Shown here: in pieces, positions 6,349-63,735 of the stretch
Layout of the letters: every line of letters begins with the position of its first letter
Position numbering within the stretch: the first letter of the stretch is position 1
Origin: Actinomycetospora sp. NBRC 106378
Lineage (GTDB): Bacteria; Actinomycetota; Actinomycetes; Mycobacteriales; Pseudonocardiaceae
DNA length: 64,000 bases
Assembly (NCBI RefSeq): GCF_030269685.1
Contig: NZ_BSTT01000021.1
Coordinates: forward strand, 1-64,000
Direction: 5' to 3'
Position numbers and translations under genes: made by a program
The notes under the pieces: generated by a model
Told to the model about the DNA's origin: nothing
What the model saw: the letters and a program-made list of their open reading frames with translations, nothing else
Database searches by the model: none

Positions 6349-7067
6349 CCCGGCTCCGACCCGGGAAGCACCGTCACCTCGTCCTCGCCGCGGTCGTACG
6401 CGGCGAGGGCGGCGTGCACCACGGCCGCCGGGCTCTGCCAGCGCGAGGCCGGGAGGTGTCCGGAGTCCTCGCCCGCGCGCTCGTGGAAGGCGGTCCGGGT
6501 CCGCCCGGGCCGCACCACGGTGACCCGGATCCGACGTTCCGCCGCCTCCCGGCGGGCCGCCCGGGAGAACGACTCGAGGTAGGCCTTGCCCGCCGCGTAG
6601 GTGGCGAGCGCCGGGTCGTCGCGGCCCGCCGCGGTCGAGGAGACGTTGAGGATCCCGCTGCCCGGGGCCATCACCCGCAGCGCCGCCGCCGTGAGACGGG
6701 TCGGTGCGAGGACGTTGAGCAGCACCGACGCCTCGAGCTCGGCCGGGGTCTGCCCGTGCAGGCCGCCGAACCGCGTCGCCCCGGCGTTGTTCACCAGCAG
6801 CCCCACCCCGCCGAGCACCTCCTCCACCCGCGCGAGGTCGTCGGGCACCGTCAGGTCGGCGACGAGCACCCGCACCGGCACCGGCAGCGTCGCGGCCAGC
6901 CGGTGCAGGGCCCTCCGCGAGCGCGCTACGAGCACCAGCGGCCGTCCCCGCGCGGCGAGCTCCCGCGCGAACGCCGCCCCGATCCCCGAGGAGGCGCCGG
7001 TGACGAGCGCCGCCGACCCGACGGGACGCACGGACGGCGGAGCCACGGGGAGCGGGGTGATCGTCAT
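6345..7067 (-). CDS. Short-chain dehydrogenase/reductase (SDR)
   Basis: A 240-residue classical SDR. The cofactor loop is TGASSGIG, NNAG follows, and the catalytic Ser/Tyr/Lys are in NVSSTAAG and YAAGK. It should reduce or oxidise an alcohol/carbonyl with NAD(P)H. It is closely similar to the SDR at 9098-9781, including the unusual tail pattern FHERAGEDSGHLP and DRGEDEVTV, so the two are recent paralogues. The two-component genes 7174-9113 lie between them. It is divergent from the sensor kinase, with 106 bases between start codons. Confidence 0.85.
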   Translation of the reverse strand: MTITPLPVAPPSVRPVGSAALVTGASSGIGAAFARELAARGRPLVLVARSRRALHRLAATLPVPVRVLVADLTVPDDLARVEEVLGGVGLLVNNAGATRFGGLHGQTPAELEASVLLNVLAPTRLTAAALRVMAPGSGILNVSSTAAGRDDPALATYAAGKAYLESFSRAARREAAERRIRVTVVRPGRTRTAFHERAGEDSGHLPASRWQSPAAVVHAALAAYDRGEDEVTVLPGSEPG

Positions 7068-7173
7068 GATCGTCAGCCTGTGGCCCGTCGTGGACCCGCG
7101 ACCACTGGACGATGGTCCCGGTACCCCTGGTCGGGGTGCCCGGAATGCGTAGTCTCGCCGTCGTGATCGCAGA

Positions 7174-8496
7174 GTGATCGGAGAGGTGGACTCGGCGCCC
7201 GCTCCGGCGTCCCCGGCGCCCGCGCGACGGCTCCTGAGGGCCACCGCGCCCCGGCTCGTGGCGGGCTTCACCGCGGCCGGGGTGCTCGTCACGCTCGGCC
7301 TGGCCGTCGCGATCGCCCTCATGGCCCGGGAACGGGCGACGGTGGTGGCCATCGACCAGGTCACGCAGATCGCCACCGCGACCGCCCACGGCGTCGTCGA
7401 ACCCCAGCTCTCCGACGGCCTGCTCAGCGGCGACCCGGACGCGATCCGGGCCGTCGACGACGCCGTGCGCCGCGCGGTGCTGGGCCACTCCCTGTTCCGC
7501 GTGAACGTCTGGGACGCCGACGGACGGATCGTCTACAGCGACCGGCCCGGTGAGATCGGCGAGCGCCACGACCTCGATGAGGGTGAGCGCCGGGCGCTCG
7601 CCGGGACCGAGCAGCAGGCCGGCGTCGCCGAGGACGGGTCGGGCTCGGGTCGCGTCCTCGAGGTCTACACCGGGGTCCGGACGCCGGACGGCACGCCGCT
7701 GCTCTACGAGGCCTACTTCCGCTACGACGCCGTCGTCGAGGCCGGGTGGGACGCCTGGCGGTCGTTCGCGCCGCTCTCGGTGGGCGCCCTGCTGCTGCTC
7801 GAACTGGTGCAGGTGCCGCTCGCCGTCGTCCTGGCCCGCAAGCTCCAGCGCCGCGAACGGCAGCGGGAACGGCTGCTGCGCCACGCCGTCGAGGCGTCCA
7901 CGGCGGAGCGACGCCGGATCGCCCAGGACCTGCACGACGGGGTGGTCCAGGAGCTGACCGGCATCACCTACGGCCTCGACGCGAGCCGGCTGCGCGGCGG
8001 GTCGGAGTCGACGGTGGTCACGGAGTCGGCCACGCGGCTGCGCGAGAGCATCGGGTCGCTGCGCACCCTGCTGGTCGACATCTACCCGCCCAACCTCACG
8101 CAGGAGGGGCTCGGCCCGGCGCTGCACGACCTCGCGGGCGGCCTGCGGCGCCGGGGCCTCGACGTCACCGTCGCCCTCGGGACCGTGGACGCCGTCGGGC
8201 CCGCCGAGGCCGCGTTGCTCTACCGGGCCGCGCAGGAGGCCGTGCGCAACGTCGTCAGCCACGCGGGCGCGAGGACCGTGACCGTCACGCTGGCCGCCGA
8301 CCCGTCCCGGTGGGAGCTCGCCGTCTCCGACGACGGGCGCGGGTTCGACCCGACCGGGACCGCCGCCCGGCAGGCGGACGGCCATCTCGGCCTCCGTGCC
8401 ATCGCCGACCTCGTCGACGACGCCGGCGGGACCGTCGACGTCCGCTCCGCGCCGGGGGCGGGAACCACCGTCACCGTCCGGGTGCCGCGCCCGTGA
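7174..8496 (+). CDS. NarL-type sensor histidine kinase
   Basis: A 440-residue membrane sensor. It has one helix near residues 28-50, an extracellular stretch of about 145 residues with a PAS-like end (NVWDADGRIVYSD), a second helix near 200-221, then the HisKA_3 dimerisation segment ERRRIAQDLHDGVVQE with phosphorylated His254. A short HATPase follows (AAQEAVRNVVSHA, DDGRGFDP, GHLGLR). The stop overlaps the start of its response regulator by 4 bases. The start could also be GTG 7186. An imperfect inverted repeat (CCGGTACCCC / GGGGTGCCCGG, 7118-7143) in the divergent promoter may be the regulator's site. Confidence 0.88.
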   Translation: MIGEVDSAPAPASPAPARRLLRATAPRLVAGFTAAGVLVTLGLAVAIALMARERATVVAIDQVTQIATATAHGVVEPQLSDGLLSGDPDAIRAVDDAVRRAVLGHSLFRVNVWDADGRIVYSDRPGEIGERHDLDEGERRALAGTEQQAGVAEDGSGSGRVLEVYTGVRTPDGTPLLYEAYFRYDAVVEAGWDAWRSFAPLSVGALLLLELVQVPLAVVLARKLQRRERQRERLLRHAVEASTAERRRIAQDLHDGVVQELTGITYGLDASRLRGGSESTVVTESATRLRESIGSLRTLLVDIYPPNLTQEGLGPALHDLAGGLRRRGLDVTVALGTVDAVGPAEAALLYRAAQEAVRNVVSHAGARTVTVTLAADPSRWELAVSDDGRGFDPTGTAARQADGHLGLRAIADLVDDAGGTVDVRSAPGAGTTVTVRVPRP

Positions 8497-12827: not shown

Positions 12828-12894
12828 CGTCAGCGGTGGCACACGGCTGACGTCCGGTGTCAGCGGTGGCACACGGCTGACGTCCGGTGTCAGC
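12825..12894 (+). repeat. Tandem 30-bp direct repeat
   Basis: Two exact 30-base units (12831-12860 and 12861-12890), each starting CAGCGGTGGCACACGGCTGA and ending CGTCCGGTGT, with partial units on either side. The SRPBCC gene's stop codon is in the leading partial unit. Only two full copies without spacers are present, so it is not a CRISPR array. Confidence 0.85.
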
Positions 12895-12940
12895 AGCGCG
12901 CCACGCTCGATGCGCGCGCCGACGCACGGGGCCCGGACGC

Positions 12941-12987
12941 GACGACGGCGACCTGCTCGCACCGGGTGGGAGCAGGTCGCCATCGTC
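12941..12987. terminator. 18-bp hairpin, terminator-like
   Basis: GACGACGGCGACCTGCTC (12941-12958) pairs with GAGCAGGTCGCCATCGTC (12970-12987) with one mismatch and an 11-base loop. It lies about 60 bases beyond the stop of the minus-strand Gly/Pro-rich gene and beyond the plus-strand SRPBCC gene, so it can serve both. Confidence 0.65.
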
Positions 12988-13046
12988 GAAGCGGAGCACC
13001 GCCCCGGCCGCAGGGAGCACGGCCGGGGCGGTGGGGTGGGGTCGGC

Positions 13047-13694
13047 TCAGCCGGCCGGCGCGGGGGCCGGGGCGGCCGGGGCCTGCCCGTTCGGCGCCGC
13101 GGGTGCGGCCGGGGCCTGCCCGTTCGGCGCCGCCGGAGCGGCCGGGGCCTGCCCGTTCGGCGCCGCCGGAGCGGCCGGGGCCTGCCCGTTCGGCGCCGCC
13201 GGAGCGGCCGGGGCCTGCCCGTTGGGCGCGGCCGGGGCGGCCGGCGCCTGGCCGTTCGGCGCCGCCGGGGCCCGGCCGGCCGGCGGCGGCGGCGGGGTCG
13301 GGGCGCAGCGCCCGGGACCGCCGGCCGGACCACCCGGAGCACCCGGGCCACCCGGAGCCGCGGGGCCACCGGCCGGACCGCCGGGCCCACCCGGGCCGGG
13401 TGCACCCGGGCCGCCCGGTCCACCCGGCCCGCCGTCGGGACCCTGCTGCGAGGCCATCGCCACCGGCCCGGCGTCACCGACCCCGCCGGGGCCCGACAGC
13501 GAGGTCCCCAGCGGCGTCGCCAGCAGCACGACGCCCGCCACCACCAGGCCGAGCACGAAGGCCCCGACCGTGCCGAGGATCCCGATCGCCCGACCACGCG
13601 GCCGGCGTTCCCGCGTCGAGTCCCGGAAGCGGGCCCAGCGCGACCGCTGCGGCACCGGCTCCACGGGGGAGGTCTCTGGGTCGTAGTCGCTCAT
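13047..13694 (-). CDS. Single-pass membrane protein with collagen-like and NGQAPAAPAAP repeats
   Basis: A 215-residue protein: a basic N-terminal cytoplasmic part (RSRWARFRDSTRERRPRGR), one membrane helix near residues 37-60, a Gly/Pro-rich collagen-like stretch (PGGPGGPGAPGPGGPGGP), then six NGQ-led repeats of an 11-residue unit to the end. It is probably a surface stalk or wall-spanning linker. The DNA repeats have a 33-base period. It is divergent from the OmpR-type regulator across a promoter full of TTCAG boxes, so that system may control it. No catalytic domain. Confidence 0.7.
   Translation of the reverse strand: MSDYDPETSPVEPVPQRSRWARFRDSTRERRPRGRAIGILGTVGAFVLGLVVAGVVLLATPLGTSLSGPGGVGDAGPVAMASQQGPDGGPGGPGGPGAPGPGGPGGPAGGPAAPGGPGAPGGPAGGPGRCAPTPPPPPAGRAPAAPNGQAPAAPAAPNGQAPAAPAAPNGQAPAAPAAPNGQAPAAPAAPNGQAPAAPAAPNGQAPAAPAPAPAG
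13060..13272 (-). repeat. 33-bp coding tandem repeats
   Basis: About six near-identical 33-base units encoding NGQAPAAPAAP at the C-terminus of the Gly/Pro-rich protein. Units differ by a few third-position changes. Copy number probably varies between strains through slippage. Confidence 0.85.
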
Positions 13695-13760
13695 CGAACG
13701 TCCTCATCCGTCTCGTTCGTCCCGCGATTCCGCGGCTGAGGACGACCATCGGCGGCGGAC

Positions 13761-13834
13761 CTGAAGCCACCCTGAGGTCGGAGGCGGCCCCGCCGTTCCT
13801 CAGCTGGGCTTCAGCGACTTCAGGCGCAGTTCAG
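13761..13834. promoter_or_regulatory. Array of TTCAG/CTGAA boxes, candidate response-regulator sites
   Basis: The divergent promoter between the Gly/Pro-rich gene and the OmpR-type regulator holds TTCAG at 13810, 13819 and 13830 (9 and 11 bases apart), a related CCTCAGC at 13797-13803, and on the other strand CTGAAG (13761) and CTGAGG (13772). Direct repeats at about one helical turn are how OmpR/PhoB-type regulators bind, so autoregulation and control of both genes is likely. Confidence 0.5.
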
Positions 13835-13858
13835 TCGCGCCTGGTGGGATGGCACGTC

Positions 13859-14572
13859 ATGGGTGGTCAGACGGATCCGAACGCGCCGCGCGTGCTGGTC
13901 GTGGAGGACGAGGCGACCGTGCGGGAGTCGATCGTGCGGGCGCTCAACCGCTCCGGGCACGTCGCCCGCGGCCTTCCCGACGGCGGGTCGCTCGAGGAGA
14001 CCCTCGAGGGGTTCCGGCCCGACCTCGTGATCCTCGACGTCATGCTCCCGGGCCGCGACGGGTTCGACCTGCTCACCGTCGTCCGCGACCGCACCGACGC
14101 AGGCATCGTCATGGTGACCGCGCGCGACGCGCTCGACGACCGACTGCGCGGCCTCGACACGGGCGCGGACGACTACGTCGTGAAGCCGTTCCTGCTCGAG
14201 GAGCTCGCGAGCCGGGTGCGCGCGGTCCTGCGGCGGCGCGGCCGGACGCCGACCGCCCTCGTCGTCGGGGACCTCGTGATCGACGAGGACGCGGGCGTCG
14301 CCACACGGGCGGGCGCGCCGCTGAAGCTGACGGCGACCGAGCTGCGGCTGCTGCGCTACCTCGCCGAGCAGCGGGGACGCACCGTGAGCAAGAACCAGAT
14401 CCTCACGCAGGTGTGGGGCTACGACGCGTACGACCCGAACCTCGTCGAGGTCCACCTCTCCGCGCTGCGCCGCAAGCTCGAGGCCCACGGACCGCGCATC
14501 GTGCACACCAGTCGGGGCCTGGGCTACACGCTGCGCGCGACCGACGCCGACCCGGCCGGGGCACCGTCGTGA
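13859..14572 (+). CDS. OmpR/PhoB-family response regulator
   Basis: A 237-residue regulator. The receiver domain has VVEDE, phosphoacceptor Asp60 in LVILDVMLPGRDG, a Thr in MVTARD and Lys109 in YVVKPF. It is followed by a winged-helix DNA-binding domain (LTATELRLLRYLAEQRGRTVSKNQIL, then VEVHLSALRRKLE and IVHTSRGLGYTL). Its stop overlaps the sensor kinase start by 4 bases. It starts at ATG 13859. Confidence 0.92.
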   Translation: MGGQTDPNAPRVLVVEDEATVRESIVRALNRSGHVARGLPDGGSLEETLEGFRPDLVILDVMLPGRDGFDLLTVVRDRTDAGIVMVTARDALDDRLRGLDTGADDYVVKPFLLEELASRVRAVLRRRGRTPTALVVGDLVIDEDAGVATRAGAPLKLTATELRLLRYLAEQRGRTVSKNQILTQVWGYDAYDPNLVEVHLSALRRKLEAHGPRIVHTSRGLGYTLRATDADPAGAPS

Positions 14573-16122
14573 GCGGCCTGCGCGACCGCCTCCGTCGTCG
14601 GGACCCCTCGGCCGTCCCGGCCCGGTCGCTGCGCTTCCGCGTCACCGCGACGGTCGTCGCCGTCATGGTGGTGACGCTGCTGGTGGCCGGGGTCGTGCTC
14701 GACCTCGTGCTCTCCGCGGCGCTCGAACGCGACCAGCAGGACCGGCTGAGCGAGCGGGCGGCCCGGGTCGACCAGCTGGTCGCCCAGCAGGTGCCCGCCG
14801 ACGAGATGGTGGCCCTGCTCAACGGGCAGGGCGTGCAGGCGGTCCGGATCGCCGCGGGCGGCGCGGTGCTGCAGGGGGTGCCGACGCCCCCGGCGCCGCC
14901 CGACGGCGGGCCGGCGGGACGGGCCGACGGTCCCCGCCCCGGACCGCCGCCCGTGCGCTCCGGACAGACCCTGAGCATCACGCGACCCCTCGCGGACGGC
15001 ACCGCCATCGTGCTCTCGTCCGACCGCGGCGAGGTCGAGGCCGTGGTGTACCGGCTGCGCGGCGTCATGATCGGGGTGGGTCTGGTCGGGGTGATCGGCT
15101 CGGCGCTGCTGCTGTTCAGCGGGGTCACCGCGGCCCTGCGCCCCCTCGACGCCATGACGCGGGTGGCGCGCGCGATCACCACCGGCGACCGCGGGCGTCG
15201 CCTCCGACCGTCGAGCGCCGACACCGAGATCGGCCGGACCGCCGCCGCGTTCGACGAGATGCTCGACGCCCTCGACGCCGCCCAGGCCCGGTCCGACGGC
15301 GCCGCCCGGCGCGAGCGGGCGGCCGCCGAGGAGGCCCGCCGCTCGGAGACGACGACCCGCCGCTTCCTCTCCGACGCGGCCCACGAGCTGCGGACCCCGC
15401 TCGCCGGGATGCAGACCCTCGCCGAGACGCTGGTGCGCGACTCCGACGAGGACCGCGAGGTGCGCGAGGAGCTCGCGATCGCCCTCGTCCGGGAGACCTC
15501 GCGGGCCTCGTCGCTGGTCACCGACATGCTCGACCTCGCGCGCATCGAGGGCGGGCAGGAGCTCGCGCGGGAGGACGTCGACCTCGTCGTCCTCGCCCGG
15601 GAGCAGGCCGACCACCTCCGGCTCGTGAGCCCGGACCTCGACGTCGAGGTGGACGCCGACGGACCCGTCGTCGCGCCGGTCGACGCCGAGAAGATGCGCC
15701 GGGTGCTGGTCAACCTGCTCGGCAACGCCCGACGTCACGTCCGCGACGGCGGGTCGGTACGGATCTCGCTGTCGGCCGACGGGGACTCCGCCCGGGCCGT
15801 CGTGCACAACGACGGCGAGCCCATCGCCGGCGAGGACCGGGACCGGATCTTCGACCGGCTGGTCCGCCTCGACGAGGCCCGGGCGCGCGACGGCGGCGGG
15901 GCCGGGCTGGGGCTCTCGATCGCCCGCGCCCTCGTGCGCGCGCACGACGGGGACCTCGTCTACCGCGCCGCCCCGGACGGTTCGGACTTCGTCCTGACGG
16001 TGCCGCTCGCAGCCGGGACCCCGGTGCCGGGACCGGAGCCGACCCCGGTCCCGGCTCCGGTCCCGGCTCCGGTCCCGGCGCAGGCGAGCACGCTGGGCCA
16101 CGTGCGTCCGCCGATTGGTTGA
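14569..16122 (+). CDS. Sensor histidine kinase (HisKA/HATPase_c) with HAMP
   Basis: A 517-residue kinase with two membrane helices (about 25-48 and 164-188) around a periplasm-facing domain that holds a Pro-rich segment (PTPPAPPDGGPAGR). A HAMP domain follows (TAALRPLDAMTRVARAI), then HisKA with His272 in FLSDAAHELRTPLAG, and HATPase motifs LVNLLGNARRHV, NDGEPI and GGGAGLGLSIA. The tail ends in PVPAPVPAPVPA repeats. It is the cognate of the regulator it overlaps. The signal is unknown; the neighbouring surface protein hints at an envelope cue. Confidence 0.92.
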   Translation: MSGLRDRLRRRDPSAVPARSLRFRVTATVVAVMVVTLLVAGVVLDLVLSAALERDQQDRLSERAARVDQLVAQQVPADEMVALLNGQGVQAVRIAAGGAVLQGVPTPPAPPDGGPAGRADGPRPGPPPVRSGQTLSITRPLADGTAIVLSSDRGEVEAVVYRLRGVMIGVGLVGVIGSALLLFSGVTAALRPLDAMTRVARAITTGDRGRRLRPSSADTEIGRTAAAFDEMLDALDAAQARSDGAARRERAAAEEARRSETTTRRFLSDAAHELRTPLAGMQTLAETLVRDSDEDREVREELAIALVRETSRASSLVTDMLDLARIEGGQELAREDVDLVVLAREQADHLRLVSPDLDVEVDADGPVVAPVDAEKMRRVLVNLLGNARRHVRDGGSVRISLSADGDSARAVVHNDGEPIAGEDRDRIFDRLVRLDEARARDGGGAGLGLSIARALVRAHDGDLVYRAAPDGSDFVLTVPLAAGTPVPGPEPTPVPAPVPAPVPAQASTLGHVRPPIG

Positions 16123-16196
16123 AATGGGTCCTTCCCCCGATCGTGCTCGGCTCGTTACGCTCCGGTGACACGCGCCAGAGTGCTTCCGGGGGTGGG

Positions 16197-16886
16197 ATGG
16201 ACCGGGTCGGGGAGTACACCTGGAGTCCCGGCATCGACCGCTGGGAGTGGAACGACACCATGTTCCACCTGCTCGGGTACGTCCCCGGGCAGGTCCGGCC
16301 GAGCCGCGCCCTCGTCGTCGCACACAAGCACCCGGCCGACCGGGCGCACGTCGAGCACGTGATGGCCGACGCGTGCAGCAACCGATTGGCGTACACCCAC
16401 CGGCATCGGATCGTGTCCGTCACCGGGGAGATCCACGAGATGACGGCGATCGGCTACCCGATCGGCCGCCGGTCCGAGGCCCTGCGGCTGCACGGCTACC
16501 TGGTCCACCTGGCCACCCACCAGCCGTCGGCCGCCGCCGCGCGAGCGACCGGGTCGGCCCCGCGCCCGCCCCACCCGCCCGCACTGCCCGGGGTCGTGGG
16601 TCCGCCGACCGTGCCGTTCACGCTCCCCGACCCGGCCACGACGCCCTGGGCCCTCGACCCGACCCGCGAGCACGACCGGCTGCTGGTCCGCGCGATCGAC
16701 GTGCTCGCGGAGGCCACCGAGCTCCCGCACGGGGCGTCGGCCGCCCTGGTCGCCCACCTCGCGAACACCGCGGCCCTGCCGTTGATCGTGGTCGCCGAGC
16801 GGATCCTCGCCATGCGCCTCGACCCCGACCTCGACGGCCTCGGCGGCCTGCTCGGCGGCATCGCCCTCCCGGACCTGCCGGACTGA
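16197..16886 (+). CDS. PAS domain protein with C-terminal ANTAR-like region
   Basis: A 229-residue protein. The N-terminal 110 residues form a PAS_3-type fold (YTWSPGIDRWEWNDTMFHLLGY, HKHPADRAHVEHVM, THRHRIVSVTGEIHEM). After a Pro-rich linker, the last 70 residues (LLVRAIDVLAEATELPHGAS, then LIVVAERILAMRL) resemble the three-helix ANTAR domain that binds RNA hairpins for antitermination, though weakly. It starts at ATG 16197 after GGGGGTGGG. It may sense a small ligand or light and act on transcription. It follows the kinase by 74 bases. Confidence 0.65.
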   Translation: MDRVGEYTWSPGIDRWEWNDTMFHLLGYVPGQVRPSRALVVAHKHPADRAHVEHVMADACSNRLAYTHRHRIVSVTGEIHEMTAIGYPIGRRSEALRLHGYLVHLATHQPSAAAARATGSAPRPPHPPALPGVVGPPTVPFTLPDPATTPWALDPTREHDRLLVRAIDVLAEATELPHGASAALVAHLANTAALPLIVVAERILAMRLDPDLDGLGGLLGGIALPDLPD

Positions 16887-16967: not shown

Positions 16968-18890
16968 ATGCGCGCACCGCGCCACGTCCGCCTGACCACC
17001 CCGCTCGTCCGTGACGGCGGTGAGCTGCGGGAGGCGAGCTGGGAGGAGGCCCTCGACCGGGCCGCCGCCGGCTTCCGGGGCGTCCCGGGCGACGCGTACG
17101 GCATGTTCTCGTGCTCGAAGGCCACCAACGAGCTGAACTTCATGGCGCAGAAGTTCGCGCGGGTGGTGATGGGGTCCAACAACGTGGACTCCTGCAACCG
17201 CACTTGACACGCTCCCAGCGTCGTCGGTCTGACGGCGGTGTTCGGCGCCGGTGGTGGCACCAGCGCCTACTCCGAGGTCGAGGACACCGACCTCGTCCTG
17301 CTCTGGGGCTCGAACGCCCGCGAGACCCACCCGATCTACTTCCACCACGTGCTGACGGGCCTGCGCCGCGGGGCCGGGATGTACGTCGTCGATCCCCGAC
17401 GCACCGCCACCGCGCGGTGGGCGCGGGGCCACCTAGCGCTCGACGTCGGGACGGACATCGCGCTGGCGCACGGGATGGGCCGCGCCATCCTCGACGCCGG
17501 GCTGGAGAACCGGGCGTTCATCGAGCGGGCCACCACCGGGTTCGACGAGTACGTGCGCGCGGTGGAGCCGTGGACGCTCGAGAAGACCGCCGAGGTCACC
17601 GGCGTCGACGCCGACCTGATCCGGGAGACCGCGCTGGCCTACGCCCGGGCCGACCGGGCGCAGCTGTGCTGGACGCTCGGGATCACCGAGCACCACAACG
17701 CCGTCGACAACGTCCGTGCGCTGATCGACCTCGCCCTGCTCACCGGCCACGTCGGGCGCTGGGGCTCCGGGCTCGTCCCCCTGCGCGGGCAGAACAACGT
17801 GCAGGGCGGCGGCGACATGGGGGCCATCCCCAACCGGCTGCCCGGCGGCTACGACGTCACCGACGACGGCCACCGCGCCCGCTTCGACGCGGCGTGGGGC
17901 AGCGCCATCCCTCCGGAGAAGGGCCTGCACCTCTCGCAGATGTTCGAGGCGATGGAGCGTCGCGAGATCCGCGCGGTCTACGTCGTCGGCGAGAACCCCG
18001 CCGAGTCCGAGGCCGACGTCGCCCACGCCCGGGCACTGCTCGGCGGCCTCGACCACCTCGTCGTGCAGGACATCTTCCGCACCGCGACCGCCGAGTTCGC
18101 CGACGTCGTGCTGCCCAGCTGCGCGGACTGGTGCGAGTACGAGGGCACGGTCACCTCGTCCGAGCGCCGGGTGCAACGGGTGCGCAAGGCGATCGAGCCG
18201 CCCGGCCTCGCCCGGCCCGACACCGAGATCCTGTGCGACCTGGCCCGCCGGCTCGGGCACGACTGGGGCACGCCGTCCCCGGAGGAGGTCTGGGACGAGC
18301 TGCGGTCGCTCTCGCTCGACTGGCACGCGGGGATGTCCTACGCGCGGCTCGAGGCCGAGGGCGGGTTGCAGTGGCCGTGCCCCTCGCTGGACCACCCCGG
18401 CACCCCGACGATGCACACCCGGCTCTGGGAGCGCGACCCCGCGCTCCGGGGAACGCCCGCACCGTTCGCCCCCGTCGTGCACGCCGGACCGCTCGACGAG
18501 CTGTCGCCGGAGTTCCCGCTGCGGCTCACCACGGTGCGGCGGCTGGACTCCTACAACTCCGGTGTGCAGACCGGCGGTTACACCTCGCCGCTGCGCCGCG
18601 AGGAGGCGCTCTGCGTGGACGCCGCCGACGCGCGTGCCCTGGGGGTGCACGACGGCGAGCGGGTACGGGTGGTCTCGCGCCGCGGGGCGGTCGAGGCGCC
18701 CGTCCGCGTCGACGCCGCCGCCCGCCCTGGCCTCGCCTTCATCACGCCGCACTTCTCCGAGCAGGTCGACGTCAACCTCATCACCAACGAGGCCTGGGAC
18801 CCGCAGTCGGGGACCTCGGAGTTCAAGGCGACCGCGATCCGCATCGAGAAGCTCGCTGTGGGGGCCCGCGTCCCCGTGGCCGGCGCCTAG
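16968..18890 (+). CDS. fdhA: Selenocysteine-containing formate dehydrogenase, catalytic (Mo/W) subunit lacking its N-terminal [4Fe-4S] domain
   Basis: The frame runs from ATG 16968 (GGAGG at 16958) to TAG 18890 with a single in-frame TGA at 17205-17207, giving 640 residues if TGA is read as selenocysteine (residue 80). The surroundings, VDSCNRT-Sec-HAPSVVGL, match the active site of E. coli formate dehydrogenase H (VDCCARV-Sec-HGPSVAGL), where Sec is the molybdenum ligand and the next His is catalytic. A SECIS-like hairpin follows. The downstream frame continues without a break through bis-MGD motifs (LLWGSNARETHP, VVDPRRT, RGQNNVQGGGDMGAIPN, GENPAESE) and a C-terminal MoCo-dinucleotide-binding domain. 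The protein starts at RHVRLTTPLVRDGG, exactly where the usual N-terminal [4Fe-4S] domain should end. That domain is encoded in the third gene. It oxidises formate to CO2 and passes electrons to the flavin subunit. Confidence 0.9.
17205..17243 (+). promoter_or_regulatory. Selenocysteine UGA codon and SECIS-like hairpin
   Basis: After the UGA and a 12-base gap, GTCGTC (17220-17225) pairs with GACGGC (17231-17236) around the loop GGTCT. C17219-G17237 extends it to 7 pairs, and two more pairs follow a mismatch. E. coli fdhF has the same GGUCU apical loop at nearly the same distance from its UGA, which is the part SelB recognises. This hairpin is strong evidence for recoding rather than a premature stop. 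Confidence 0.85.
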
Positions 18891-18899
18891 GAGGCCCGC

Positions 18900-20738
18900 G
18901 TGGACCTGGTCCTGCTGCCCGACGCGGCGACCGAGGCCGAACGGGCGGCGGTCGACGCCGCCGTCGGCTCCCCCGGCCACGAGCGGCGCGACCTGCTGCT
19001 GCCCGCCTTCCACGCCGTGATGGACGCCGTGGGCTGGATCAGCCGCGGCGCGCTGTCCTACGTCTGCGACCGGCTGCATGTCCCGCCGGCCGAGGCCTAC
19101 GGCGTCGCGACGTTCTACGCGTTGTTCTCGGTGACCCCGCGAGCGCCGCGGACCGCGCACGTCTGCGACGACGTCGGGTGTGCCGCGTTCGGCGGTGAGG
19201 ACCTGTGCGCGGCGTTGGAGGAACGGCTCGGCCCACCGGGGTCCGGCGAGGAGGTCACCTGGACGCGCAGCCCCTGCCTCGGCCTGTGCGAGCGGGCGCC
19301 CGCGGTGTTCCTGCAGCGCGCCTCCCCCTCCGCCGAGGACGAGGGGAACCCTGAGGCCACACGAGCGCTCGCGTCCTCCCCTCACGACGACGCTCCCGGC
19401 GGCGACCACGCCCAGATCGCGCCCGCGACCGCCGACACCGTCCTGCGCGCCCTCGACGGGGAGGACGTCGATGGCCCCGACCCCGTCGTCAGCACCCCGC
19501 AGGCGGGCGGGCCGGACCTGGAGCTGCTGTCCCGGGTCGGGGTGGTCGACCCCGGCGACCTCGACTCCTACCGCGCCGCCGGCGGGTACGCGGGCCTGCG
19601 GCGCGCGCTCGCCGTCGGCTCCGCCCGCGTCGTCGACGAGATCACCGTCGCCTCGCTGACCGGCCGGGGCGGCGCCGCGTTCCCCACCGGCACGAAGTGG
19701 GCCGCCGTCGCCGGCTCCCCCGAGCCGGAGAAGTACCTCGTCTGCAACGCCGACGAGTCCGAGCCGGGCACGTTCAAGGACCGCGTGCTCATGGAGGCCG
19801 ACCCGTTCGCGCTGGTCGAGGCGATGACGGTTGCGGGGATCGCGGTCGGCGCCCGGACCGGCTACCTCTACGTGCGCGGCGAGTACCCCGCGGCGGAGCG
19901 GGCGATCCTGCGCGCCGTCGCGGAGGCCCGGCGCCACGGCTACCTCGGCGACGACGTCATGGGCTCGGGACGGGCGTTCGACCTCGAGGTCCGTCGGGGC
20001 GCCGGCGCCTACATCTGCGGCGAGGAGACCGCGCTGATGAACTCGCTCGAGGGCCGTCGCGGCGAGCCCCGGGCGAAACCGCCGTTCCCGACGGTGGCCG
20101 GCCTGTTCGGGAAGCCGACGGTGATCAACAACGTCGAGACGCTGGTCAACGTGCTGCGGATCGTCGCCGAGGGCGGCCCGGCGTTCGCGTCGATCGGCTC
20201 CGGACGGTCGACCGGGACGAAGCTGTTCTGCCTGTCCGGCGTCGTGGCCCGGCCCGGCGTCTACGAGGTGCCGATGGGGACGACGCTGCGCGAGCTGCTC
20301 GAGCTCGCCGGTGGAGTTCCGCCGGACCTGCGGGCGATCCTCCTCGGTGGGGCCGCGGGCTCGTTCGTCACGCCCGACCAGCTCGACGTCCCGCTGACCC
20401 TCGAAGGCACCCGCGAGATCGGTGCGACCCTCGGCTCGGGCGTGGTGCTGTGCTTCGACTCGACGACCGACTTCGCCGCCGTCCTGCGCCGGATCGCGGG
20501 GTTCTTCCGCGACGAGTCGTGCGGGCAGTGCGTGCCGTGCCGCGTCGGCACCGTGCGCCAGGAGGAGGCGCTCGCGCGCATCGTGCGCGGCCGCGAGATC
20601 GGCGGCCGCACCATCGAGCTCCAGCTGCTCCGCGACGTCGACCGCGTCATGACCGACGCGTCCATCTGCGGCCTCGGCCAGACCGCGGCGTCCGCGGTCC
20701 GCTCGGCCCTGGCCCTCGGCCTGATCGGAGGGTCATGA
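18900..20738 (+). CDS. fdhB: Formate dehydrogenase NADH-side subunit, NuoE-NuoF fusion
   Basis: A 612-residue fusion. Residues 1-140 are a NuoE-like thioredoxin-fold [2Fe-2S] domain (cysteines in CDDVGC and CLGLC). After a roughly 60-residue acidic linker comes a NuoF-like domain: GRGGAAFPTGTKW for the FMN/NAD site, CNADESEPGTFKDR, GAGAYICGEETALMNSLEG, and the [4Fe-4S] cysteines in ESCGQCVPCRVGT plus a later Cys in SICGLG. It takes electrons from the formate site and reduces NAD+ through FMN. It starts at GTG 18900 with GGAGG right after the fdhA stop, and overlaps the next gene by 4 bases. Fused E-F subunits are known among soluble NAD-linked dehydrogenases. Confidence 0.9.
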   Translation: MDLVLLPDAATEAERAAVDAAVGSPGHERRDLLLPAFHAVMDAVGWISRGALSYVCDRLHVPPAEAYGVATFYALFSVTPRAPRTAHVCDDVGCAAFGGEDLCAALEERLGPPGSGEEVTWTRSPCLGLCERAPAVFLQRASPSAEDEGNPEATRALASSPHDDAPGGDHAQIAPATADTVLRALDGEDVDGPDPVVSTPQAGGPDLELLSRVGVVDPGDLDSYRAAGGYAGLRRALAVGSARVVDEITVASLTGRGGAAFPTGTKWAAVAGSPEPEKYLVCNADESEPGTFKDRVLMEADPFALVEAMTVAGIAVGARTGYLYVRGEYPAAERAILRAVAEARRHGYLGDDVMGSGRAFDLEVRRGAGAYICGEETALMNSLEGRRGEPRAKPPFPTVAGLFGKPTVINNVETLVNVLRIVAEGGPAFASIGSGRSTGTKLFCLSGVVARPGVYEVPMGTTLRELLELAGGVPPDLRAILLGGAAGSFVTPDQLDVPLTLEGTREIGATLGSGVVLCFDSTTDFAAVLRRIAGFFRDESCGQCVPCRVGTVRQEEALARIVRGREIGGRTIELQLLRDVDRVMTDASICGLGQTAASAVRSALALGLIGGS

Positions 20739-21685
20739 CGACCGTCGACCTCGGCACGATCCGCCGGCTCGTCAGCGTCACCGTCGACGACGTCGAGCAC
20801 CGCGCGCCCGAGGGCGCCACGATCATGGACGTCCTCGACGACGCCGGGGCCGACACGCCGCGGCTGTGCCAGGCGCCCAACCTCACGCCGGTGAACGCGT
20901 GCCGCGTGTGCGTGGTGGAGGTCGAGGGGTCGCGTCCCCTCGTGCCGTCGTGCGCCCGGAAGGTCGAGGACGGCATGGTCGTCCGCACCGACACCGAACG
21001 CGTCGCGCACAGCCGGAAGATGGTGCTGGAGCTGCTCGCGAGCGCCAACGACCTGTCGGAGGCCGGCGACGACGTCGCCCGCTGGCAGATCGAGTACGGC
21101 GCCGACCCGGAGCGCTACGGCCCACCCGGGCCGCCCGCCGCCGCCGGCGAGCGCGGCAACCGGCACGCCGGTCACCACGGGATTCCCGACGGCGAGACGC
21201 GGGCGACGGTCGCGCAGCCGGTCACCGTGGACAACGACCTCTACGTGCGCGACTACGCCCGCTGCATCCTCTGCTACAAGTGCGTCGAGGCGTGCGGCAC
21301 CGACGCGCAGAACACCTTCGCGATCGCCGTCGCCGGCCGCGGGTTCGACGCCACGATCTCCACCGAGTTCGCCGTCCCGCTGCCCGACTCGGCGTGCGTG
21401 TACTGCGGGAACTGCATCGGCGTCTGCCCCACGGGGGCGCTGAAGTCGGTGGCCGAGCACGAGCGTCGCGAGGCCGGCACGTGGGACCCCGAGGGCGAGA
21501 CGGTCACGACGACGGTCTGCTCGTTCTGCGGCGTCGGCTGCTCGCTGGAGCTGCACGTGCAGGACAACACGATCGTCAACGTGACCTCGCCGTCCGACCA
21601 CTCCGTGACGCACGGACACCTGTGCATCAAGGGTCGGTTCGGGTTCCAGCACGTGCAGAATGTGGCTTCGCCAGGTGAGCACTAA
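20735..21685 (+). CDS. Iron-sulfur subunit: NuoG/HoxU-like domain fused to the [4Fe-4S] N-terminal domain of formate dehydrogenase
   Basis: A 316-residue protein. Residues about 14-85 form a plant-type [2Fe-2S] domain (CQAPNLTPVNACRVC and a later SC). Where related proteins have a His-Cys3 cluster segment, this one reads LELLASANDLSEAGDDVARW with no cysteine, so that cluster is lost. Two classic [4Fe-4S] motifs follow (CILCYKCVEAC and CVYCGNCIGVCP). The last 50 residues, TTVCSFCGVGC through LCIKGRFGFQHVQN, are the N-terminal [4Fe-4S] domain that normally belongs to the catalytic subunit. It wires the catalytic subunit to the NuoEF-like subunit. The last codons and stop lie in a palindromic terminator. 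Confidence 0.88.
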   Translation: MTTVDLGTIRRLVSVTVDDVEHRAPEGATIMDVLDDAGADTPRLCQAPNLTPVNACRVCVVEVEGSRPLVPSCARKVEDGMVVRTDTERVAHSRKMVLELLASANDLSEAGDDVARWQIEYGADPERYGPPGPPAAAGERGNRHAGHHGIPDGETRATVAQPVTVDNDLYVRDYARCILCYKCVEACGTDAQNTFAIAVAGRGFDATISTEFAVPLPDSACVYCGNCIGVCPTGALKSVAEHERREAGTWDPEGETVTTTVCSFCGVGCSLELHVQDNTIVNVTSPSDHSVTHGHLCIKGRFGFQHVQNVASPGEH

Positions 21686-21714
21686 TCCGTGCTCCAGCAC
21701 GGATTAGTGCTCAC
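21675..21714. terminator. Perfect 19-bp palindromic bidirectional terminator containing both stop codons
   Basis: GTGAGCACTAATCCGTGCT is followed by CC and then its exact reverse complement. The formate dehydrogenase operon (plus strand) and the acyl-CoA ligase operon (minus strand) converge here. Because of the symmetry both genes end in GAG CAC TAA, that is Glu-His-stop. It is AT-richer than its surroundings and almost certainly a two-way terminator. Confidence 0.9.
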
Positions 21715-23287
21715 GTGCGAGCGCAGCGAGCACACTCGTGCGGATCTTCGTCCCGTTCGTGCCCGAGGTCGTCGGCATCGCCTCGAGCACGTGCACGGCC
21801 GCCGGCACCTTGAACGCGGCCAGCGTCGCGGCGCACCAGGCGCGCAGGTCCTCGGGTGAGGCCGGGGCGTCGAGCGTGACGAACCCGACCGCCACCGACC
21901 CGCCGTCGGGGCCTTCCGTCCCGACGACCTTCGCCGTGTGCACCGCCGGGTGCGCCGCGAGCCGCAGCTCGATCTCGGCCGGGTCGACGAGGAACCCGCG
22001 CAGCCGCAGCGCGTCGCCGGCGCGGCAGACGTAGACGAACGCGCCGTCGTCGACGACCACCCCGAGGTCACCGGAGCGGAACCAGCCGTCGTCGGTGAAC
22101 ACGTCCGGCGACGACCCCAGGTACCCGTCCACGACGTTCGGCCCGCGGAACTCCAGCTCGCCCTCGACGCCGGGTCCGCCCTGCACGCGCACCTCGATCC
22201 CGGGGTGCACCACACGCCCGCCACCGGCCCAGCGCTGCGGCGTCGGCTCGGACAGCGGCCACGTCGCGGCGAGCGCGAACAGCTCGGACGAGCCGTAGAC
22301 GCCCGCCGTCGCCACGCCGTGGTCGTCGAGCCACGCCGCCAGCTCGTGCGAGCGCCCCTGGAAGTCGGCGACGCCCCACCACCGCCACGTCGGCAGCGCC
22401 CGCGGGCGCTCCCGCAACGCCGTGACCAGCCGGAGCACGAGGTCGTCGCCGCTCGCGAGGTGCGTGACCCCGGCGGCGGCCATGTCGGCGAGCGTGTCGT
22501 CGGCGTCGAAGACCGGCTCCAGCAGCGCCGCCCCGCCCGCCGCCAGCCCGGCCATGACCGCGTTGTAGCCGAACACGCCCGACAAGGGCAGGGCGCCGAG
22601 CACCACGTCGCCCTCGGCCAGCCCCAGCGCCGCGGCGCCCGCGACGGCATGGGTCAGCACCGCGGCGCCGGTGTGCGCCGCGAGCTTCGGCAGCCCGGTG
22701 GAGCCCGACGTCGTGAAGGCGACGGCGAGCCGATCCGGGTCGGAGCGTTCCGGCTCCGGGCCGTCGGTCCGCGCCGGGGTCCAGGCGTCGAGCTTCCCGA
22801 CGTCAGGGTTGGTCCCGTCGCCGCGGACGAGCGCCGCCTGCGGCCGGACGCCCGACCCCTCGACGGCGGCGCGCAGCTTCCCGGCCAGGTCGAGCCCGTG
22901 GAACCCGCACGCGAGCGCCACGAGCACGGGGCGCGCGCGGGTGAGGACGTGGGTGACCTCCTCGACGCCGTAGCGGGTGTTGATCCCGACGACGAGCCCG
23001 CCGCGCGCGGCGACGGCACACTGCCAGACGAGCGCGTCCGTCCAGTTCGGCATCCACACCGCGACCGTGTCGCCGGCGCCGACCCCGTGCTCGCGCAGCT
23101 CCTCGGCGAGCGCCCGGACCCGCTGCCACAGCTCGCCGCGGGTCACCGCGACCAGCCCGTCGGGGGTGCGCTCGTGAACCGCGACGACGTCGGGCTCGCG
23201 CCGCGCGAGGCGCCCGACGAGGTCGGGCAGGTCGGTGGGCCGCTCCCCCGCCGCCGGGAAGGGCGCCACGCTGCGCAGCTCGGTCAT
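21704..23287 (-). CDS. AMP-forming acyl-CoA synthetase/ligase
   Basis: A 527-residue ANL-superfamily enzyme. The adenylate loop reads TTSGSTGLPKLA, then GVYGSSELFA, the GWFRSGDLGVVVDDGAFVYVCRAGDALRLRGF hinge, and the end of the mobile domain TTSGTNGTKIRT with the catalytic Lys. It activates a carboxylic acid to its CoA thioester. It is the last gene of a three-gene operon (MaoC-like, hydrolase, ligase) whose start codons overlap the preceding stops by 4 bases. The operon is next to a TetR gene and an organic-acid transporter, so the acid is probably imported. The chain length or ring type is unknown. Confidence 0.88.
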   Translation of the reverse strand: MTELRSVAPFPAAGERPTDLPDLVGRLARREPDVVAVHERTPDGLVAVTRGELWQRVRALAEELREHGVGAGDTVAVWMPNWTDALVWQCAVAARGGLVVGINTRYGVEEVTHVLTRARPVLVALACGFHGLDLAGKLRAAVEGSGVRPQAALVRGDGTNPDVGKLDAWTPARTDGPEPERSDPDRLAVAFTTSGSTGLPKLAAHTGAAVLTHAVAGAAALGLAEGDVVLGALPLSGVFGYNAVMAGLAAGGAALLEPVFDADDTLADMAAAGVTHLASGDDLVLRLVTALRERPRALPTWRWWGVADFQGRSHELAAWLDDHGVATAGVYGSSELFALAATWPLSEPTPQRWAGGGRVVHPGIEVRVQGGPGVEGELEFRGPNVVDGYLGSSPDVFTDDGWFRSGDLGVVVDDGAFVYVCRAGDALRLRGFLVDPAEIELRLAAHPAVHTAKVVGTEGPDGGSVAVGFVTLDAPASPEDLRAWCAATLAAFKVPAAVHVLEAMPTTSGTNGTKIRTSVLAALAREH

Positions 23288-60954: not shown

Positions 60955-63051
60955 TCAGGAGCGCAGCGACTCCTTCAGGAACGCCACCTGGAGACGCAGC
61001 AGGTTCTCGGCCACGACCTCCTGCGGCGTCATGTGCGTGACCCCGGAGAGCGGGAGCACCTCGTGCGGCCGTCCGGCCGCGAGCAGGGCCGAGGAGAGCC
61101 GCAGGGTGTGGGCGGCGACGACGTTGTCGTCGGCCAGCCCGTGGATGAGCATGAGCGGCCGGTTCGGGGCCTCCGCCGTCGCGGGGCGGGCCGCGTCGGC
61201 GAGGATCGACGAGCGCTCGTAGGCGTCGGGCCGGTCCTGGGGCGTGCCGAGGTAGCGCTCGGTGTAGTGGGTGTCGTAGAGCGCCCAGTCGGTGACGGGC
61301 GCTCCGGCGATCGCCGCGTGCACGGCGTCCGGTCGACGCAGCACCGCGAGCGCCGCGAGGTACCCGCCGAACGACCAGCCCCGGATGGCCACGCGGGCGA
61401 GGTCGAGGTCCTCCACCTCGCGGGCGGCCGCCTCGAGCGCCGCGAGCTGGTCGTCCAGGACGGGGGCGGCGAGGTCACCGTCGACGGCGCGCTCGAACGC
61501 CGGACCGCGCCCGGGCGTCCCACGGCCATCGGCGATCACCACGGCGAACCCCTGGTCGGCGAACCACTGGCTCGTCAGGAAGGCGCCGCGGGCGTCGAGG
61601 ACGCGCTGGGCGTGCGGCCCGCCGTACGGGTCGAGCAGCACCGGGAGCTTCTCGGAGCCGGGGATGTGGTGGCGGGGCAGCAGCACCGCCGTCGCGAGGC
61701 CCCGCTCCCCCGCCGCGAACAGGTGCACCCGCGGTTCGAGGTTCGGCGACTCCGCGAACGAGCGCAGCACCGTCGACGACCCGGGGCCGCGGACCGTCGT
61801 CACCGACCCGTCGTGCTCCAGCGAGGCCTGCGCGACGACGAGCGTCCCGCCCGCCAGCCGGCCGGACGCGACGCCGCGCTCGGCGCTCACCACCGACAGC
61901 CCGGCCTCGCGCGACCAGACGGCCAGCACCGTCGACGTCGGGACGCCGGAGCGCGAGGCGGTGACCAGCACCGTTGCGCCGTCGACCGCCGCGACCCCGC
62001 GGACCTGCCACTCGGGTCCGGTCACCGCCACCCCGTCGACGACCAGCCGGCGGGCGTCGTCGAGATCGGCACACCAGACCAACGACCCGTCGTCGAGGTG
62101 GGCAGGGACGCCGGGCACCAGGTCCACCCAGGCCGGGTCGGTCTCGTCGCGCACCACCGCCGAGGTTCCCGACGACGGGTCCACCCGGCGGAGCGTGATG
62201 GTCCTCTGGTCGCGGGTGGAGGTGGTGAGCAGCAGGTCGTGGGCGTCCCATGTGACGTCGGCGAGGTACTCGTCGGGCTGTTCCACGTCCACGCGCGACC
62301 CGTCGAGGCCGAGCACGTGCAGCGTGACCGTCGCGTTCGTCGTGCCGGCGGCGGGATAGCCGACGGCGGTCGGTTCGCGGTCGGGGTTCGCGGGGTCGGC
62401 GATGTGCCAGCGCGTGACCGCGGCGTCGTCGGCCCGCGCGACCGCCAGGGCGGCACCGTCCGGCGCCCACCAGTGGCCCCGGTAGCGGTTCATCTCCTCG
62501 GCCGCGACGAACTCGGCGAGTCCGTAGGTGACGTGGTCGGCCTCGGGGGTGGCCAGGGTGCGCTCCGCGCCGTCGACGAGCACGTGCAGCGCTCCGTCGC
62601 GCACGAAGGCGACCGCGTCGCCGGCCGGGGAGGGGCGCGGGTCGACGACGGGTCCCTCGACGGGCAGCGGTTCCGGGGTGGCGCCCGGGTGCAGCGCCAC
62701 GGTGAAGGCCCGTCCGGAGAGCACGAACGCGGCGAGGTCGACGGAACGGTCGGTGGCGTAGTCGACGACGCCCCCGGACTGCTCGCGCACCCGCTCCCGC
62801 CGCGCCTTCTCCTCCGGCGGCAGGTCCTCCTCGCCCGGCACGTCGAGGGCGAGCGGGTCGACGAGCAGGTGTTCCTCGCCGCTCGCGACGTCGAGCACCC
62901 ACAGGCAGGTCACCGGATCGTCGCCACCGCGGCTGCGCAGGAAGACGACGCGCGAGCCGTCCGGGGCGACGGTCGCGCCGCGCGGGGCGCCGAGGGTGAA
63001 GCGCCGGGTCGCGGCCTGGCGGCGGGGGAAGGAATCAGCAGGTGCTGCCAC
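60955..63051 (-). CDS. S9 family (dipeptidyl peptidase IV-like) peptidase
   Basis: A 698-residue serine peptidase. The DPP IV-type propeller carries a double-Glu motif for the substrate N-terminus in GLAEFVAAEEMNRYRGHWWAPDG. The hydrolase domain has DPYGGPHAQRVLD, nucleophile Ser in IRGWSFGGYLAAL, Asp in IHGLADDNV and His in LSGVTHMTP. It removes dipeptides from N-termini, usually after Pro or Ala. No signal peptide is visible. It follows the small hydrolase gene by 6 bases. Confidence 0.9.
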   Translation of the reverse strand: MAAPADSFPRRQAATRRFTLGAPRGATVAPDGSRVVFLRSRGGDDPVTCLWVLDVASGEEHLLVDPLALDVPGEEDLPPEEKARRERVREQSGGVVDYATDRSVDLAAFVLSGRAFTVALHPGATPEPLPVEGPVVDPRPSPAGDAVAFVRDGALHVLVDGAERTLATPEADHVTYGLAEFVAAEEMNRYRGHWWAPDGAALAVARADDAAVTRWHIADPANPDREPTAVGYPAAGTTNATVTLHVLGLDGSRVDVEQPDEYLADVTWDAHDLLLTTSTRDQRTITLRRVDPSSGTSAVVRDETDPAWVDLVPGVPAHLDDGSLVWCADLDDARRLVVDGVAVTGPEWQVRGVAAVDGATVLVTASRSGVPTSTVLAVWSREAGLSVVSAERGVASGRLAGGTLVVAQASLEHDGSVTTVRGPGSSTVLRSFAESPNLEPRVHLFAAGERGLATAVLLPRHHIPGSEKLPVLLDPYGGPHAQRVLDARGAFLTSQWFADQGFAVVIADGRGTPGRGPAFERAVDGDLAAPVLDDQLAALEAAAREVEDLDLARVAIRGWSFGGYLAALAVLRRPDAVHAAIAGAPVTDWALYDTHYTERYLGTPQDRPDAYERSSILADAARPATAEAPNRPLMLIHGLADDNVVAAHTLRLSSALLAAGRPHEVLPLSGVTHMTPQEVVAENLLRLQVAFLKESLRS

Positions 63052-63057
63052 GGCCGG

Positions 63058-63735
63058 TCATCCTGCCTGGTCGACCTCCGCGACGAGCGCCTCGATCGCG
63101 CCGACGAGCACGTCGGGTCCCTCGCGCAGCACGTCGTGGGTGGTGGGCAGGTCGGTCACGGTCCACGTCGGGTCGGCCCGGAGCCGGTCGGCGATCGCGG
63201 GGAACGGCGAGCCCGCGGCCCACGCCGGGTCGGCGGCGAGCGCGTAGTGCCGCACCCCGCGGAAGGCACCGGTGAGCCGGATGCGCTGGAGCAGCGACGC
63301 CACCGGGTGCGGGGTGGCGCGTGGGTCGAACTGCGGCATCGGGTCCAGGCCGGTGCCGCTGCGCCCGGACGCGTCGACGTACCAGGCCCGCATGGCGTCG
63401 TCGACGGAGGTCCAGCACGAGTCCCCGTCCTCGGGCGCGAACCCGTCCACCGAGAGCAGCCCGACGACCTTCCCGGGGAGCGCGTCCGCCACCCCCGCGA
63501 CCACCATGCCGCCGTAGCTGTGGCCGACGAGGACGACGGGGCCGTCGAGCGCGGCGGCGGTCGCGGTCACGTCCGCGACGTGCGACGCGAGGGTCGCGCC
63601 CGGCTCCTCGGCCCGCTCGCAGAGGCCGGGGAGGGTCAGCGCGAGGGCCGCGTGGCCCCGTGCGGTCAGGCTCTCGACGACGGGGGCGTACCACCAGGCG
63701 CCGTGGCAGGCCCCGGGGATCAGGACGATGTTCAT
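63058..63735 (-). CDS. Alpha/beta hydrolase
   Basis: A 225-residue hydrolase of the salicylate esterase/hydroxynitrile lyase-like type. It begins MNIVLIPGACHGAWWYAPVVESL, with Ser in VLVGHSYGGMVVAGVAD and His in DLPTTHDVLREGP. It acts on small esters. It is divergent from a LysR-type gene 71 bases away, which is the usual arrangement for a LysR regulator and its target, and is the likely first gene of an operon with the S9 peptidase. Confidence 0.85.
   Translation of the reverse strand: MNIVLIPGACHGAWWYAPVVESLTARGHAALALTLPGLCERAEEPGATLASHVADVTATAAALDGPVVLVGHSYGGMVVAGVADALPGKVVGLLSVDGFAPEDGDSCWTSVDDAMRAWYVDASGRSGTGLDPMPQFDPRATPHPVASLLQRIRLTGAFRGVRHYALAADPAWAAGSPFPAIADRLRADPTWTVTDLPTTHDVLREGPDVLVGAIEALVAEVDQAG

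Follow-up and report, generated by a model that had tools for sequence, protein, structure and literature searches.

Three selenocysteine (Sec) formate dehydrogenases were described in 2020 from Actinomycetospora chiangmaiensis DSM 45062 (PMC7176365). One of these, FDH3 (FdhA3-FdhB3-FdhC3; 640, 614 and 316 aa), is cytoplasmic and was proposed to be NAD+-dependent. All three FDH3 subunits were detected by proteomics, and the same paper already includes the Sec codon of FDH3 and a SECIS search. Formate accumulated in this species without selenite and was almost negligible when 0.11 uM selenite was present (PMC7176365). The NAD+-linked enzymes of C. necator and R. capsulatus are Cys-Mo enzymes in which FdsA is one subunit (PMC13397495). 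E. coli FdhF is likewise a single chain, with Sec in the motif VDCCARV-U-HGPSV.

Here we analyse a locus in Actinomycetospora sp. NBRC 106378, taken from a window of 64,000 nucleotides (the whole stretch of DNA that was analysed; positions 1 to 64,000 of contig NZ_BSTT01000021.1, forward strand). The locus is orthologous to the FDH3 operon, encoding proteins of 640, 612 and 316 aa, and gene 1 is 96% identical to its A. chiangmaiensis counterpart (L115). This sister species very probably shares both the operon and the set of three enzymes. The selenocysteine part is already published for the genus Actinomycetospora and hence is not new. The main text of that publication gives the three FDH3 subunits without remark on a split, and no description of a split alpha subunit was found in the literature searched (open-licence full texts, without supplements). 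In the FdsA-type and FdhF-type enzymes compared here, the Fe4S4 domain shares a chain with the molybdenum domain, and the split provides a natural experiment on whether the two must be covalently joined.

Gene content of the operon and the split alpha subunit

The operon comprises three co-directional genes, listed here with their features.

16968..18890, + strand: gene 1, predicted Sec-containing catalytic part of a formate dehydrogenase alpha subunit, without Fe4S4 domain (640 aa; Pfam, TIGR01591, 6tg9_A)
17205..17207, + strand: TGA predicted as selenocysteine codon, residue 80 (same codon in 53 family genomes)
17219..17237, + strand: bSECIS-type hairpin, loop GGTCT at 17226-17230 (kept in TGA relatives; at the distance seen in E. 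coli fdhF)
18900..20738, + strand: gene 2, NuoE-NuoF fusion, HoxF-like, FMN/NAD-binding diaphorase subunit (612 aa; Pfam)
20735..21685, + strand: gene 3, NuoG/HoxU-like iron-sulfur subunit (316 aa; Pfam, 6tg9_A)
21500..21661, + strand: Fe4S4 domain of formate dehydrogenase alpha, C-terminus of gene 3 (C262, C265, C269, C297, K299)
21672..21717, no strand: near-perfect inverted repeat (22-nt arms, 95% complementary, 2 nt apart)

A ribosome-binding-like GGAGG precedes the ATG of gene 1, gene 2 starts 9 nt past gene 1, and the start of gene 3 shares 4 nt (ATGA) with the stop of gene 2. Profile searches placed the Pfam domains Molybdopterin and Molydop_binding in gene 1; 2Fe-2S_thioredx, Complex1_51K, SLBB and NADH_4Fe-4S in gene 2; and Fer2_4, Fer4_7 and Molybdop_Fe4S4 (residues 256-309) in gene 3. 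No Fe4S4 domain was found in gene 1 by the Pfam profile search. The single-chain model TIGR01591 is divided between two genes, its positions 1-50 corresponding to gene 3 residues 260-309 and its positions 52-672 to gene 1 (601.1 bits; curated cut-off 666.25). The FdsA chain 6tg9_A is covered in the same manner, from 12 to 303 by gene 3 and from 307 to 931 by gene 1. On these alignments, the alpha subunit is split, with its catalytic part on gene 1, its metal-proximal [4Fe-4S] domain on gene 3, and gene 2 between them. The preliminary description had taken 16968-18890 as the whole alpha subunit; this needs correction, as the Fe4S4 domain that gene 1 lacks ends gene 3. Annotation by TIGR01591 would miss gene 1, which scores below the cut-off of that model. 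The expectation that automatic annotation would break the gene at its TGA holds in part: the 640-aa FdhA3 of A. chiangmaiensis has an intact NCBI entry (WP_084681743.1), whereas for the two remaining Sec alpha subunits the paper enters n.a. (PMC7176365).

Compared with FdsABG(D) of R. capsulatus (6tg9/6tga) and C. necator, genes 1 and 3 together tile FdsA, and gene 2 has the FdsG and FdsB domains, NuoE/NuoF-type parts that are fused here. The alpha subunit is divided here and its halves stand in reversed gene order, whereas FdsA is one polypeptide, and Sec here takes the place of Cys there. FdsA carries four [4Fe-4S] and one [2Fe-2S] clusters (PMC13397495), whereas the cysteines of gene 3 allow three and one. 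An alignment of 67 gene 3 sequences (our own plus the 66 from the best 80 loci that aligned over >290 positions) contains 16 Cys and K299 that are invariant in 67/67, the tail residues C262, C265, C269 and C297 included, leaving room for one [2Fe-2S], two ferredoxin-type [4Fe-4S] and one Mo-proximal [4Fe-4S]. K299 would be the lysine that accompanies the Mo-proximal [4Fe-4S], with the role that this residue has in E. coli FdhF. The HxxxCxxCxxxxxC motif of the FdsA-type chain 9wxb_B is missing from gene 3 in all 67 aligned sequences (0/67), and a check of ten fused family relatives did not find it either. The AlphaFold model of gene 3 was poor (pLDDT 63.5). Gene 1 and E. coli FdhF have homologous catalytic domains (1aa6); FdhF is one chain, and its match to gene 1 begins at FdhF residue 61, after the Fe4S4 domain.

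We propose that the operon specifies a Mo formate dehydrogenase that is cytoplasmic and very probably reduces NAD+, with Sec at the UGA and an alpha subunit completed in trans, a reading to which we give a probability of roughly 0.86. SelB and Sec-tRNA would read UGA 17205 as selenocysteine, aided by the GGUCU hairpin, and the Sec would serve as a metal ligand beside an invariant His. The gene 3 tail would dock on gene 1 and complete the active-site half. The exit for formate electrons from the metal centre would be a lysine and a [4Fe-4S] cluster that sit on another polypeptide, in the C-terminal domain of gene 3. The two ferredoxin-type [4Fe-4S] and the [2Fe-2S] of this subunit would relay them to FMN on gene 2, and from there they would reach NAD+. 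The UGA with its conserved SECIS, the Sec machinery, the divided alpha subunit and the operon can be read from the sequence; how the halves assemble in trans, which path the electrons take and what accepts them are inferred. A Sec formate dehydrogenase whose catalytic chain can be separated, and which is probably linked to NAD+, would be of interest for CO2/formate biocatalysis.

The inverted repeat at 21672-21717 lies between gene 3 and a convergent gene for an AMP-binding enzyme and is a possible two-way terminator. Directly upstream of the operon and on its strand, 12887-16886 encodes a response regulator, a sensor kinase and a PAS-domain protein, which are possible regulators of the operon.

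Distribution and ancestry of the split

The split arrangement is widespread among relatives. In 68 of the best 80 of at least 571 loci, gene 3 follows gene 2 and carries the tail (in one of the 68, L174, the tail is seen in part, at a contig end). Contig ends cut before or within gene 3 in 11 of the other 12 loci. A Myxococcales bin (L180) encodes gene 1 with TGA at 6501-8387, and no gene 2 or gene 3 match was found in the 6.5 kb upstream or the 3.6 kb downstream to the contig end. A phylum sample of 396 genomes gave 40 with matches of about 990 bits or more, our own genome included, and the same gene order was present in 8/8 of those fetched, two of which (G581, G610) are the same places as L155 and L142. 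Records with the full order are labelled Actinomycetota, Dormibacterota, Acidobacteriota, Chloroflexota, Planctomycetota, Gemmatimonadota and Spirochaetota. The record with a lone gene 1 is labelled Myxococcota. Labels outside Actinomycetota may be wrong because these records are metagenome bins.

Trees were built from rows hand-picked from the loci, with 13 one-chain relatives for comparison. A branch with 100/100 support separates the split catalytic parts from the rest in a tree of 67 rows, and does so again in one of 43 rows. Forms with Cys at the Sec position cluster together (93/80), nested in a larger clade (100/99) to which two Sec forms also belong. When the root is placed outside the split enzymes, this nesting among Sec forms can be read as a single change from Sec to Cys. 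Five short FdhF-type TGA enzymes from relatives in the phylum (L226, L227, L230, L231 and L237) are the sister group of the split catalytic part (100/100) and likewise have one in-frame TGA. These enzymes differ in that the Fe4S4 domain is fused at their own N-terminus, and the fetched loci gave no match to gene 2 or gene 3. L226-L228 (G498, G476 and G508) scored highest among the one-chain relatives in the phylum sample. These short FdhF-type proteins are about 712 aa long and have both a TGA and a fused Fe4S4 domain; no match to gene 2 or gene 3 was found near them.

These data incline us, with some reserve, towards a single origin, in which one old event moved the metal-proximal [4Fe-4S]-lysine domain to the HoxU-like subunit, leaving an electron exit completed in trans in the descendants sampled, mostly with Sec and in records labelled as seven phyla, and one lineage later changed Sec to Cys. 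If this single-event account is true, the diaphorase half is an exchangeable module. Fused relatives show both orders, GB-A and A-GB, and tandem duplication with complementary loss (A-GB-A) is therefore a possible origin of the reversed order.

A rather unlikely alternative is that the enzyme is a chimera, with the diaphorase and Fe4S4 tail taken from an FdsA-type enzyme and the catalytic part from an FdhF-type enzyme. A mixed parentage of this kind would fit the position of the catalytic part, which is nearest (100/100) to short FdhF-type TGA enzymes with an Fe4S4 domain of their own. It would also fit the gene 3 tail, which is FdsA-like by eye (KGRFG), and the mean alignment scores of the split tails, which are higher to 11 FdsA-type tails (132.6) than to 7 FdhF-type tails (123.0). 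However, a tree of the tails (65 columns, omitting the FdsA-type rows L207, L208 and L212) groups the split tails with the five FdhF enzymes named above (96/96), that is, with the lineage of the catalytic part, although this tree is weak, being short, with a long branch and with the FdhF tails nested inside the split tails. The chimera is thus not supported by the tail tree.

Completion of the alpha subunit in trans has a further competitor at the level of function: gene 1 could function by itself or with a different partner protein, its proximal [4Fe-4S] being absent or replaced by another cluster, and the tail of gene 3 would then have some other purpose. We regard this as improbable. It would account for L180, where gene 1 occurs without genes 2 and 3 nearby, and for G202 and G203, where gene 1 (with TGA) lies ~12-14 kb from the gene 2-gene 3 pair, on the opposite strand (L081/L201 and L082/L202). 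Yet both of these genomes still keep gene 3, and retention of gene 1 and the gene 2-gene 3 pair despite their separation is expected if both halves are needed. Further evidence against an independent gene 1 is that the end of the tail and the start of gene 1 adjoin in both TIGR01591 and FdsA, that the four Cys and the Lys of the tail are invariant in 67/67 sequences, and that no tail match was found upstream of gene 1 in the sequence covered for the best 80 of at least 571 loci. We note that the neighbours of gene 1 in L081 resemble, by eye, an MFS transporter and a permease.

Selenocysteine codon, hairpin and machinery

The frame at 16968-18890 (+) spans 640 residues and contains one internal stop only, the TGA at 17205-17207. 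Rereading it bore out the preliminary description, which had reported a single TGA in a 640-codon frame open on both sides, with VDSCNRT before residue 80 and HAPSVVGL after it. Substitutions were counted by codon position before and after the TGA against five relatives. Compared with A. chiangmaiensis, counts at positions 1/2/3 are 0/1/10 before the TGA and 17/11/110 after it, and compared with the two most distant of the five relatives, the counts after the TGA are 106/80/192 and 110/74/187. Third-position changes are commonest on both sides, and the downstream part therefore evolves as coding sequence in frame. Residues on both sides of the TGA are conserved across 14 aligned proteins.

The TGA is also conserved as a codon. 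A protein search of 390 family genomes found 115 with a match of >=798 bits, of which 53 have TGA at the residue-80 codon, all 53 codons having been read. The other 62/115 are not TGA: 23 codons were read as TGC or TGT, and the remaining 39 genomes were classed by the absence of TGA inside the match rather than by codon reading. Four of the 23 Cys genomes (G344, G353, G355 and G161) had been flagged with TGA, which in the first three is near the C-terminal end of the match. Among the best 80 of at least 571 relatives in named genomes, chosen by similarity rather than as a survey and overlapping the family set, there are 74 TGA, 5 TGC and 1 TGT. The 170 fetched loci, which are partly redundant, divide into 141 TGA and 29 TGC/TGT, and 35/40 matching genomes of the phylum sample carry one TGA. 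A second Sec was considered for homologues flagged with two TGA and rejected for those fetched: besides the Sec codon, L061, L067 and L070 have stops where the match ends at its C-terminus, and L046/L047 have the Sec codon alone.

The hairpin CGTCGTC-GGTCT-GACGGCG has its arms at 17219-17225 and 17231-17237 and its first stem base 12 nt after the TGA, arms and loop being located as first described. The likeness to E. coli FdhF drawn at that time, in Sec motif and loop distance, also stands, as GGTCT lies at an identical distance from the TGA in the fetched fdhF sequence. Folding the RNA and comparing relatives, as had been suggested, gave divergent outcomes: the folding energy was no better than chance, and loop and stem follow TGA rather than Cys. 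The energy is -13.7 kcal/mol (z -0.36), 67/200 shuffles of this GC-rich sequence being equally good, and was dropped as evidence for a SECIS. Under a synonymous-codon null, with the protein fixed and codons drawn by the usage of gene 1 itself (5000 draws), 9.6% of draws yield the loop alone, 10.1% the 7-bp stem alone and 1.0% the two together. Because the energy is unremarkable and the codon null yields loop plus stem in 1.0%, the hairpin of this single sequence is no more than suggestive. A search of Rfam gave no SECIS match, with five hits, all under the curators' thresholds.

Support for the SECIS, and with it for Sec, is comparative: relatives with TGA retain both loop and stem, and those with Cys do not. 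The 170 partly redundant loci reduce to 60 distinct TGA and 24 distinct Cys 39-mers. GGTCT occurs at the same offset in 60/60 of the TGA sequences compared with 3/24 of the Cys sequences, and a complete 6-bp stem in 59/60 compared with 0/24. When 3' arms were dealt randomly among the TGA sequences (2000 shuffles), the full stem formed in a mean of 49.0 and a maximum of 55/60. Stem pair 2 is C-G in 18, U-A in 27, U-G in 15 and C-A in 0 (Fisher 1.4e-6, rows counted as unrelated), and stem pair 4 is once G-C in place of C-G. Residues 86 and 89 vary with pair 2, as VVGLT, VVGLA or VAGLA and never VAGLT, and RNA pairing may thus constrain protein residues at this point. A protein-level cause could also explain these residues, as all Cys forms have VAGL followed by A or S.

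The genome encodes selenocysteine machinery and two further TGA-containing alpha subunits, on contigs other than that of the operon.

C20:56004-57017: selA (genome search)
C20:54799-55851: selB (genome search)
C20:63919-64010: tRNA-Sec, anticodon TCA (genome search)
C3:486403-487314: selD (genome search)
C14:59121-59861: fdhD (genome search)
C20, about 62944-63390, - strand: second, membrane-type formate dehydrogenase alpha with in-frame TGA (also L052, L252)
C17, 108753-109145, - strand: third formate dehydrogenase alpha with in-frame TGA and a similar hairpin (L251)

The search of the genome for selA, selB, selC and selD, as suggested in the preliminary description, found all four, among them selA, selB and selC, whose absence would have refuted the reading. 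Together with the conserved TGA and SECIS and the data from the sister species (PMC7176365), their presence indicates that the reading as a functional selenoprotein was right. Across the family, a selA match (E <= 1e-40) is present in 50/53 Sec genomes; at this threshold none was found in G035, G315 and G320, drafts that are 83, 95 and 72% complete. selA is also present in 35/62 family genomes whose copy is without TGA, and by itself is therefore no predictor of Sec in gene 1.

That the TGA is a true stop, through sequencing error or nonsense mutation, leaving an inactive pseudogene or a shorter protein from the GTG at 17238, would agree with the usual meaning of in-frame stops and with the 550-aa frame that this GTG opens 3' of the TGA, but can be set aside: pseudogene and sequencing error were rejected on the conservation of the codon (53/390 family genomes and 74 of the best 80 of at least 571 loci, in overlapping sets) and on the third-position bias on either side of it, and the conserved flanks in 14 aligned proteins, the SECIS that accompanies TGA and not Cys, and the 640-aa orthologue detected in A. 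chiangmaiensis (PMC7176365) likewise oppose a stop.

Both additional alpha genes have GGTCT after the TGA at the distance found in gene 1. The gene on C20 encodes NQARI-U-HSATVPGLG, has the hairpin GTCCCC-GGTCT-GGGGAC and adjoins selA, selB and the tRNA-Sec gene, and the gene on C17 is probably the counterpart of A. chiangmaiensis FDH2.
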